64,000 nt of DNA from Sphingorhabdus sp. EL138 (GTDB taxonomy: Bacteria > Pseudomonadota > Alphaproteobacteria > Sphingomonadales > Sphingomonadaceae). Below, piece after piece: positions 54,494-56,562 of this stretch (positions within the stretch are counted from its first letter, which is position 1; every line of letters begins with the position of its first letter). The stretch covers positions 1,240,001 to 1,304,000 of the forward strand of contig NZ_OGVD01000004.1 in assembly GCF_900258045.1 (NCBI RefSeq). Reading direction: 5' to 3'. The notes beneath the pieces are model-generated. The model had not been told where the DNA came from. It did no database searches and saw only the letters and a program-made list of their open reading frames with translations. The position numbers and the translations under genes are program-made.

Positions 54494-54632
54494 TCGTATT
54501 TTCCTTTGTCCCGCCTGCCCTATGCAGTGCGGGGGCTTTCATTTGTCCAGCAATCCGGCTGAACAGCGGTTCGGGGTCATTTGTGCCCCTTGTGTGGAGC
54601 ATTGCTGCCTTATTGCTGCAACGCCCAATAAG

Positions 54633-54659
54633 AAAACGGCCCCGCAAGGAGGCCGTCTT
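54633..54659 (-). terminator. Terminator between rpsO and pnp
   Basis: On the minus strand AAGACGGCC pairs with GGCCGTTTT (core arms 54636-54641 and 54651-54656) across a 9-base loop, followed by a T-rich CTTATT. It lies 9 bases behind the rpsO stop. It probably attenuates read-through, so that pnp is partly transcribed from its own promoter in 54494-54630, which otherwise holds no gene. Confidence 0.7.
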
Positions 54660-54667
54660 CGAAACTC

Positions 54668-54937
54668 TTATTTCCGGAGACCAAGGTCTTTAATCAACTT
54701 GGAATAGCGTCCCGCATCTTTCTTGCGGAGATAGTCCAGCAAGCTGCGACGCTTGTTGACCATCATCAGCAAACCACGACGGGAGTGGTTATCCTTGTGG
54801 TGGCCTTTGAAATGCTCGGTCAGGTTCACGATACGCTCGGTGAGGATCGCAACCTGAACTTCCGGGGAACCGGTATCGCCTTTTGTCTGGGCGAATTTTT
54901 CAATCAGTTCCTGTTTTTTTTCTGCGGTAATCGTCAT
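54668..54937 (-). CDS. rpsO: 30S ribosomal protein S15
   Basis: An 89-residue primary 16S rRNA-binding protein. The sequence matches S15 throughout: '[20 protein letters not shown]', '[20 protein letters not shown]', '[20 protein letters not shown]'. Length is exactly typical. It stands between truB (25 bases upstream) and pnp, the classical order. S15 in other bacteria represses its own translation through a leader structure; the 25-base gap here is too short for the E. coli type of structure unless it includes the end of truB. Confidence 0.98.
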
Positions 54938-54962
54938 AATCTAATTTTTCCTTCGAACATCT

Positions 54963-56027
54963 TTACATATTAAATCCGCGAACAACCTTTACGGTTCCAA
55001 CAACAAGCTCTGCCAAGGCAACCGGAGAACCATCTTCGGTCGCTAGAAAAAGCCCGTCATTTGGCGGGTTCCCGATCAATTCCTGTTCGTCCAGCACTTG
55101 GCCTTGTCGAAGCAGTCTTGCCTGATCAGGAGTGAGGTCAAAAGCCGGGATGTCGTCCAGCCCCGCCTCAAGCGGCAAGAGACAATCTTTAATGTCCGCG
55201 CCCTTACCAATTTCATTGAGTTTGTCCAGCGAAATCGCATGATTGAGCGTAAACGGCCCCGCCTTTGTGCGGCGGAGCATGGAAACATGGCCAAAAGTAC
55301 CAAGCGCACGCGCAATATCGCGGGCCAGAGAGCGGATATAGGTGCCTTTGGAAACATTGGCTGTGAGAGTCACAGAATCAATCCTCTCCCCTTGAGGGAG
55401 AGGAAACGGAGACTTGACAGCTTGCTGCCCTAGTCGAGTTGGCGAGGGGGCTGGCTTGGCGCTCCCTCTCTTCCTCTCTCCAAGCTTAGCTAACTCGCTT
55501 TGCTCATAAGCATCGCTGTCCTCTCCCTCCGGGGGAGAGGAAATGGAAAGGGCATATATCTCCACCGCCCGCATCTTCATCTCAACCGCTTCGCCGGCCC
55601 TCGCCAGATCGTAAGCGCGCTTGCCATCAATTTTCAGCGCCGAATATTTGGGCGGTATCTGATCAATTTGCCCGGTAAATTGGGGCAAGACAGCCTTCAC
55701 CTCAACCAAGGTCGGAAAATTGTCAGAGGTTTCAGACACCTCCCCTTCAGCGTCCAACGTCTCGGTCTCTTTTCCGAAAGCAATCGTAAACTCATAGATT
55801 TTCGACGCGTCCAGCATACGCCCGCACAGCTTGGTCGCCTCGCCTATGGCAATCGGCAAAACCCCAGTCGCCAGTGGGTCCAGCGTCCCGCCATGACCAA
55901 CCTTGGTCTTGTCCTTGCCCTTACCGAGAAGCCCGGCCTCACGCATATTGCGTTTAACCGCACCAACGGCTTGCGTTGATCCCAGTTCCAACGGTTTGTC
56001 GAGAATGATCCAGCCGTGCGGTTTCAA
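54963..56027 (-). CDS. truB: tRNA pseudouridine(55) synthase with an in-frame repeat insertion
   Basis: A 354-residue enzyme that makes pseudouridine 55 in tRNA T-loops. The catalytic motif 'VGHGGTLDPLATGVLPIAIG' (Asp50), 'QIPPKYSALKIDGKRAYDLA' and 'VSKGTYIRSLARDIARALG' are intact. Between 'MRAVEIYALSI' and 'IDSVTLTANVSKG' about 54 residues (163-216, 'SPPEGEDSDAYEQSELAKLG', 'PAPSPTRLGQQAVKSPFPLP') have no counterpart in other TruB proteins and coincide with a palindromic repeat element (55380-55541). Without it the length is about 300, the family norm. The insertion is at a surface loop and keeps the frame, so the enzyme is probably active. Confidence 0.95.
   Translation of the reverse strand: MKPHGWIILDKPLELGSTQAVGAVKRNMREAGLLGKGKDKTKVGHGGTLDPLATGVLPIAIGEATKLCGRMLDASKIYEFTIAFGKETETLDAEGEVSETSDNFPTLVEVKAVLPQFTGQIDQIPPKYSALKIDGKRAYDLARAGEAVEMKMRAVEIYALSISSPPEGEDSDAYEQSELAKLGERKRGSAKPAPSPTRLGQQAVKSPFPLPQGERIDSVTLTANVSKGTYIRSLARDIARALGTFGHVSMLRRTKAGPFTLNHAISLDKLNEIGKGADIKDCLLPLEAGLDDIPAFDLTPDQARLLRQGQVLDEQELIGNPPNDGLFLATEDGSPVALAELVVGTVKVVRGFNM
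55380..55541. repeat. Palindromic repeat element inserted in frame within truB
   Basis: The 162-base element is bounded by two hairpin units in direct orientation: CCTCTCCC-CTTGA-GGGAGAGG followed by AAACGGA (55383-55410) and CCTCTCCC-TCCGG-GGGAGAGG followed by AAATGGA (55520-55547). Between them lie further CTCTCC-rich segments (55471-55490) and a G-rich block (55443-55452). It has no stop codon in the truB frame. The encoded 'SPTRLGQ...FPLPQGER' peptide resembles translations of promiscuous intergenic repeats seen in many proteobacteria. Confidence 0.8.
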
Positions 56028-56049
56028 ATATATTTCCTAGAATATTGCA

Positions 56050-56562
56050 TCAGGAATTCGGCCATGCCAGACCGATAGCGTGATCACGGACCGAAGCCGA
56101 CCATTGTTTGGACAGCAATTCAAAACGTTCGCGGTCATCTGCATAAAGCGCCCTTATGACTTCCTCAAATTGCGGCCAATCCCCCGCGATGACAGTCAGG
56201 AAATGATAGGCCGCATCTTGTCCCTTTCGTTTATCCAAGCCTGTTTTTCTTGCCTGATCAACCAATCGGCGCAATGTCGCTGACGCTCCACCGGATTGTT
56301 TTCCAAGCCAGTCCCAATGCCGTGGAAGCAAGGTAACCTCCTTGGAAACCACGCCAAGTTTTGGCCGCCCCCGCTTAGTCGGCGCTTCTGTTTCGTTGGT
56401 AGCCCGCAAATCAAAATCTATCTGGCTGCCGGTCTCGTCATCGAAAACCAAAATGTCGGAACTCCGCTTGACCGCAGGCAAAGCCCGCAAAGTGTCAATA
56501 ATCTCGGAGCGCGACCCTGTCGCTAACCAGTTTGCTTCCGAAAATGCTGTATAGGTTGTCAT
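56050..56562 (-). CDS. DUF2239 family protein
   Basis: A 170-residue cytoplasmic protein matching DUF2239: 'WLATGSRSEIIDTLRALPAV', 'ILVFDDETGSQIDFDLR', 'KRGRPKLGVVSKEVTLLPRH', 'WDWLGKQSGGASATLRRLVD' and 'AAYHFLTVIAGDWPQFEEVI'. The 'VSKEVTLLPRHWDWL' part resembles a ribbon-helix-helix DNA-binding segment (inference), so it may be a small regulator; its function is not established. It begins from what looks like its own promoter with a palindrome (56585-56623) and interrupts the usual rbfA-truB neighbourhood. Confidence 0.88.
   Translation of the reverse strand: MTTYTAFSEANWLATGSRSEIIDTLRALPAVKRSSDILVFDDETGSQIDFDLRATNETEAPTKRGRPKLGVVSKEVTLLPRHWDWLGKQSGGASATLRRLVDQARKTGLDKRKGQDAAYHFLTVIAGDWPQFEEVIRALYADDRERFELLSKQWSASVRDHAIGLAWPNS

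Follow-up and report, generated by a model that had tools for sequence, protein, structure and literature searches.

Cases of protein-coding palindromes are limited in number, and the palindromic elements of Rickettsia (RPEs) were reportedly described by Ogata et al. in 2000 and 2002. As far as the accessible text of the pertinent papers goes, RPEs are palindromic repeats of about 100–150 bp, located in frame in conserved genes and at solvent-exposed positions (PMC3733652, PMC3767692, PMC10969869, PMC2229807), and truB of R. conorii is named as a carrier of RPE-1 (PMC3733652). In the accessible parts of their paper, Di Nocera et al. 2013 placed CGTC and GTAG REPs inside genes, including those of tRNA synthetases, listed REPs in truB of S. 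maltophilia, E. litoralis and S. alaskensis, and suggested that loop insertions of REPs may be neutral (PMC3733652). The CGTC REP is characterized there, again in the accessible portion, by an unpaired CGTC (or TGTC/CCTC) tag, an 8–9 bp stem usually starting with A-T pairs, a loop of 4–5 bases and a CCA tail (PMC3733652). For Wolbachia and Rickettsia, the available part of another report gives two kinds of element in one biotin ligase gene region, where hotspots cannot be excluded (PMC3767692). MITEs (ERIC, Correia and others) are presented, in the accessible text of PMC2229807, as short, non-autonomous elements whose open frames are fused to genes. The occurrence of palindromic elements in genes, truB included, is already in print in these accounts of RPEs and REPs, whereas neither a coincidence of truB sites nor replacement is stated for the REPs in the accessible text of PMC3733652.

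The locus described here, an insert of element family A in truB, lies in a 3.66-Mb Parasphingorhabdus genome, of which the window (the whole stretch of DNA analysed) covers 64 kb. The insert shows the RPE-like traits of an interspersed palindromic repeat (~100–160 bp), in frame in a conserved gene that has element-free orthologues. Element A and the RPEs, as presented in the accessible literature, are alike in being palindromic repeats in frame in conserved genes, truB included, but differ in host and in element sequence. Unlike with RPEs, one site is here common to several dissimilar element groups and changes between neighbouring species; in comparison with the biotin ligase case, as far as its accessible account goes, seven element groups use one truB turn in one genus. 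From the CGTC and GTAG REPs, family A differs in its CCTCTCCC ends, which lie inside the stem. By reading, a stem of 8 and a loop of 5 fit the CGTC REP, but CCTC is paired, and the A-T start and the CCA tail are missing. The GTAG REP/RAYT traits are absent as well. By reading, there is no terminal GTAG; this genome also lacks a Y1_Tnp match, on which ground a RAYT as its mover is rejected, while 13 of the 32 genus genomes have one. Classes B, C, C2, E and I, other elements at the same turn, start with CGTCAT or TGTCAT and look like CGTC-type REPs, and classes B, E and I presumably resemble widely seen alphaproteobacterial repeats. From the MITE traits, family A has inverted arms, and no target-site duplication was obvious by eye at 20 dispersed copies.

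A literature search that covered few subscription papers found no published account of family A, of its stop-free truB lineage, or of one shared site with turnover. What looks new here is the presence of protein-coding palindromes at one shared, repeatedly refilled turn. The truB turn lets such palindromes be followed at one site across a bacterial family; close relatives display it short, filled, truncated, switched or inverted. This allows tests of how selfish DNA turns into protein sequence, of any effect on the host enzyme, and of site choice by palindromic elements.

The truB gene and its insert

The truB gene (tRNA pseudouridine(55) synthase) is located at 54963–56027 on the minus strand and encodes 354 residues with a TTG start. 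Its product matched TIGR00431 with 212 bits against a cut-off of 151, and GTLDP, which we take to be part of the TruB catalytic motif, was invariant among 32 aligned homologues. The ORF is open across both palindromes of the insert. Among the listed truB matches of the genus, those that cover the whole gene lack internal stops, and a pseudogene is therefore rejected.

In the AlphaFold2 model, calculated with 32 homologues, the mean pLDDT was 81. Values <50 over at least three residues occurred solely at 164–208, inside the insert and between strands 152–161 and 217–224. The top PDB match of the model was 1k8w, the E. coli TruB-RNA complex (TM 0.86 by target and 0.75 by query). In the sequence alignment with TruB 1sgv, query positions 157 and 217 fall on its residues 151 and 166; therefore, the insert is placed at a short turn of TruB. 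The model shows a TruB fold that is predicted to be intact, and the insert occupies the turn that connects two core β-strands. We read the A insert as a putative disordered loop of ~55 residues, the translation of which is suggested by the open frames.

Element A was aligned with full-length copies from query position 1–4 to 163 and occupies 55382–55544 on the minus strand; the dispersed copies set its limits at 55382 to about 55541/55542, and the final 2–3 bases may be truB. It is ~160 bases long, has no visible gene of its own, starts on a codon boundary and encodes, in frame, residues ~161–215 (353-residue numbering). The terminal palindromes, at 55383–55403 and 55520–55540 with no strand assigned, both have the form CCTCTCCC-N5-GGGAGAGG and encode, in the minus-strand reading, PLPQGER and SSPPEGE, respectively. 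With ≤3 mismatches, this pattern had no further match in the window (0.21 expected), and two or more matches occurred in 3 of 100 shuffles of the window. The palindromes are embedded in a 29-nt direct repeat with 83% identity. The element as a whole forms a long hairpin (55382–55541, minus strand), whose outer arms of 34 nt, 55382–55415 and 55508–55541, are 79% complementary and were the longest inverted repeat found by a scan of the window. The minus-strand RNA fold of the hairpin reached −83.6 kcal/mol, and the folding z of the truB loop region was −5.3 against 60 dinucleotide shuffles.

The outer AAATGGA (55541–55547, minus strand) probably represents native truB codons. It seems to fall outside element A because the dispersed copies stop at the palindrome and the flanks of the 20 copies read differ there; similar codons also flank other elements in other truB genes. 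Hence, only the inner AAACGGA looks like a part of the element. The first-pass annotation had proposed that a palindromic repeat became part of the truB coding sequence, and the TIGR00431 match together with dispersed copies in this genome and the genus bears this out. Its statements that the insert keeps the frame without stops, and that it sits in a loop before VSKGTYIRS, agree with the open ORF and with the modelled turn between two strands. It had also described two palindromes, each followed by AAAYGGA; the palindromes and the inner AAACGGA stand, but the outer AAATGGA probably belongs to truB.

Dispersed copies and other elements at the same turn

In the same genome, the palindrome pattern was found at 9 places, two of which are the truB pair, compared with one place for a reversed control pattern. 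A 211-base query gave 9 matches including itself, among them a full-length copy at C2:330674–330835 (80%) and a partial copy at C3:326023–326093 (93%). Within Parasphingorhabdus, 28 of 32 genomes had matches to the A query at E ≤0.001, and the full-length copies end alike. The truB insert matched the dispersed copies at 77–84% over about 160 bp, and full-length copies in its own genome and the genus rule out a coincidental repeat likeness. These copies show the truB segment to be an INTERSPERSED element, a dispersed repeat. The recurrence elsewhere in the genome that the annotation had predicted was thus found, with one full-length copy besides that of truB. Similar segments in distant genera, which it had named as an argument against insertion, exist in part, as A-type segments are also present in truB of Sphingobium and Novosphingobium (several recognised by eye).

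We read 20 full-length A copies outside truB, from nine genus genomes and with one copy from the genome of the window. They form six groups by flanking sequence, and given the like flanks, many of them probably correspond to one site found in several species. Around none of the 20 did we find a spanning frame with at least 60 residues on both sides; the nearest case, 95+52 at L229, seems, by eye, to lie beyond the end of a real gene. In the frame used by truB, all 20 dispersed copies contain a stop, mostly an inner-arm TAG, compared with none of ten truB copies, although with only six groups of sites these are not 20 independent facts. The truB copies have a different inner arm, resembling by eye that of the A-type truB inserts of Sphingobium and Novosphingobium. 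Some A inserts may therefore be inherited or transferred between genera, but over the whole element the truB copies are 80% identical with dispersed copies in their genus, compared with 69% for the truB inserts of other genera, which speaks against it.

From the genus, 30 truB loops were extracted, 29 via searches of 32 genomes and one from a named locus. We sorted them by motif classes A–I, which are our own labels and regular expressions: ten loops belonged to A, six each to C and D, two to B (one a truncated relic), and one each to C2, E, F, G and H, whereas a single loop had no class. In total, 29 of 30 loops matched an element class, and nine motif classes were represented. Based on DNA similarity at E ≤1e-3, the classes, with I taken from other genera, fall into seven groups, {B, C, C2}, {E, I}, A, D, F, G and H. 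Arm sequence is common to B, C and C2, and likewise to E and I; between the seven groups no similarity was detectable at that threshold. The inserts of the classes examined mostly fold as one long hairpin, with a perfect 27-bp stem in the C insert of G006, and folding z was below −4 in 22 of the 30 loops.

The dispersal search covered 251 loci (0.92 Mb), taken for truB, glyS, a transposase family or the class survey; whole-genome searches cover classes A and C. Outside masked truB loops, there were 1 hit for A, 26 for B, 30 for C, 18–23 for C2, 8–14 for D, 8–19 for E, 9–14 for F, 8 for G, 19 for H and 9–11 for I, which are not copy numbers because the loci partly overlap and were freed of exact duplicates alone. 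Moreover, class B is backed by one arm common to C and class A by a single hit, and the C2 hit in L105 stems from a truB loop that was left unmasked. As controls, two Erythrobacter-like non-repeat loops gave no hits in the 251 loci, and two short loops matched just their own unmasked place. We also observed that C inserts in truB of G010, G012, G017 and G011, and in glyS of G011, often follow a short stretch that resembles part of their own end, reading RHPxxxT-RHPELV, which is perhaps a trace of the insertion mode.

Turnover at the turn and its explanation

In the tree of loop-free truB with flanks, different element classes pair closely: support is 100% both for L056 (H) plus G024 (A) and for G019 (D) plus G011 (C), 97% for G009 (D) plus G017 (C), and 99% for G003 (F) plus G026 (E). 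On the glyS tree, with 28 tips and 9 states, the truB types require at least 12 changes, compared with 16.5 on average and 13 at the least in 500 shuffles; therefore, the types follow clades in part, with the reservation that both trees have several low-support nodes and may be disturbed by recombination. The D element of G022 (L030) is inverted relative to those of G002 (L032), G009, G019 and G020 (further loci L031, L033 and L035). It matched the other D inserts at 80–86% reversed and 74–77% direct, with a baseline of 62–70% for own reverse complements. G022 and G002 pair at 100% in the truB tree despite the opposite orientation. Since the element is open in the truB frame in both directions, and inverted in G022, the G022 peptide at this insert is quite different. 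Among the ten A inserts of truB, no reversal was found.

The truB genes of G000, G027, G028 and G025 (L019, L021, L020 and L023) are mosaic, differing by up to ~17% upstream and 1–2% downstream. Upstream of, within and downstream of the insert, G000 differs from G028 by 3.8, 11.7 and 1.9%, and from G027 by 15.6, 3.1 and 1.7%. We take this mosaicism in the A clade as a sign of recombination near the insert. The A insert has dS 0.184 and dN 0.082, compared with 0.478 and 0.040 in the rest of truB, and dN/dS of 0.45 versus 0.085. This combination would not be expected of a neutral insert that had simply been inherited since ancient times; recent recombination between species that carries the insert accounts for the pattern, with constraint on the hairpin as the alternative. 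For truB of G019 (D), the nearest sequence is that of G011 (C) immediately upstream of the insert and that of A types immediately downstream; no D donor was seen, so that the notion that all element switches came by recombination with a sampled donor is unsupported.

The explanation that we consider likely is that an interspersed palindromic element came to lie in frame in truB, was tolerated in a permissive loop and was then exchanged. Elements would land widely, and most landings inside genes would be lost. The exposed TruB turn would be one of few permissive acceptors and, for this reason, would be hit or refilled repeatedly, and insert alleles would spread and switch between species by truB recombination. 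For the enzyme, the A insert is probably nearly neutral. That sphingomonad TruB simply has a variable loop of its own, coincidentally like the repeat, would accord with the non-repeat loop ..STFATTAGRPDPYDP.. that occupies the turn in 19 of 66 family genera; nevertheless, the A insert matches dispersed copies over about 160 bp, and an element precedes the non-repeat loop in five genera, making this reading exceedingly improbable. The insert might instead be selected as protein, providing TruB with a new contact to RNA or a partner protein, in line with its dN/dS below 1, the open frame in ten of ten A copies and their stop-free variant. We regard this as improbable, given that the insert is predicted to be disordered, dissimilar peptides fill the turn (even one element read both ways), dN/dS is fivefold higher than elsewhere in truB, and the loop length in the family sample spans 16–101 residues. 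Similarly small is the probability that a functional hairpin, such as an RNase III or attenuation site, is kept in the truB-rpsO-pnp transcript and can be supplied by any palindromic element. The long-hairpin folds, the genus z values and the lowered synonymous rate in the insert would agree with it, but two of the 30 genus loops, those of G014 and G018, lack a hairpin (z 0.1 and −0.4), none of the 24 short loops of the family sample has z < −4, no Rfam family matched at 54600–56200 up to E 1, and glyS, another gene, takes the same element kinds.

Re-use of the turn could also arise from site-directed targeting or replacement, in which the mover prefers a sequence or a palindrome, or hairpin arms recombine, and a new element replaces the old one. 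As judged by eye, elements enter truB at almost identical codons and mostly leave no trace of a predecessor; in several cases, in truB and glyS, a C insert comes after a short incomplete copy of its own end, and the D element of G022 lies inverted in place. On the other hand, the six groups of dispersed A sites differ in their flanks, a match to the Y1 transposase, the kind searched for, is absent from seven of ten A-bearing genomes including that of the window, and permissiveness alone already predicts re-use; we find targeting rather unlikely. Most likely, the turn is simply permissive, and replacement or flipping via the hairpin itself is possible. A related, doubtful though conceivable, idea is that the TruB turn and a linker in glyS are self-renewing, meaning that an existing hairpin attracts the next, or arms recombine, and elements swap or flip in frame. 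If so, truB and glyS would be standing nurseries of new protein loops in the family.

Spread across the family and a second site in glyS

For the family sample, 69 of 80 genomes (G032–G111) were taken, as 11 lacked listed coordinates or a match; loop extraction failed for 3, leaving 66 genera. Among these, 24 have short truB loops, 20 have an element in the loop (15 alone and 5 in front of the non-repeat loop), and, counting the long loops without elements, 19 are non-repeat and 3 unclassified. The annotation had expected orthologues to be free of the segment, which is true of the short loops but not of the genus itself, where nearly every loop matches some element class. Of 59 extracted named loops from outside the genus, 19 fell outside the motif classes, and several of them look, by eye, like A, C2 or D variants; element counts outside the genus are therefore lower bounds. 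Of 197 loci in total, four (L105, L286, L294 and L297) yielded no extracted loop. A family-wide TIGR00431 search gave the best matches only, and no count rests on it. Outside the family, 132 of 137 alphaproteobacteria with TIGR00431 matches had a truB excess of at most 5 residues and four had 9–13, compared with 37–58 in three family members of the class survey. The sole case above 20 residues among the 137, G275, had an excess of 25 near profile position 137–140.

A search with the family C peptide in four genomes gave 99 matches, from which 30 loci were read. In-frame C copies in recognisable conserved genes were found in truB (G006, G008 and G011) and in glyS (G008 and G011); long frames around the C copies in L351, L357 and L372 had no Pfam match. 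As judged by eye, the second host gene appears to be glyS, encoding the glycyl-tRNA synthetase beta subunit. Across the genus, its linker NILKKE..LSYTPEKAE (L376–L405) carries six or more kinds of insert that look, by eye, like elements, including C-, F- and G-like ones (classes by eye), and is short in the genome of the window and eight others. In the same loci, the region after ALRRAA also varies strongly in length between species and does not look palindromic.

Elements stand directly before another non-repeat truB loop, STF/SAF..GRPDPYDP.., in L288 (G037), L331 (G093) and L131 (G033), and the same layout was observed in L137 (G043) and L144 (G081), as expected of insertion into another loop background. 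L077 and L332 have very long truB loops with several tandem palindromic elements (C-type and H-type), all in frame. Finally, family F elements at the truB site are arranged in two ways, as FRGG..PSPEGEG or with the order reversed, in L138 and L323 versus L086 and L037, which suggests separate events.
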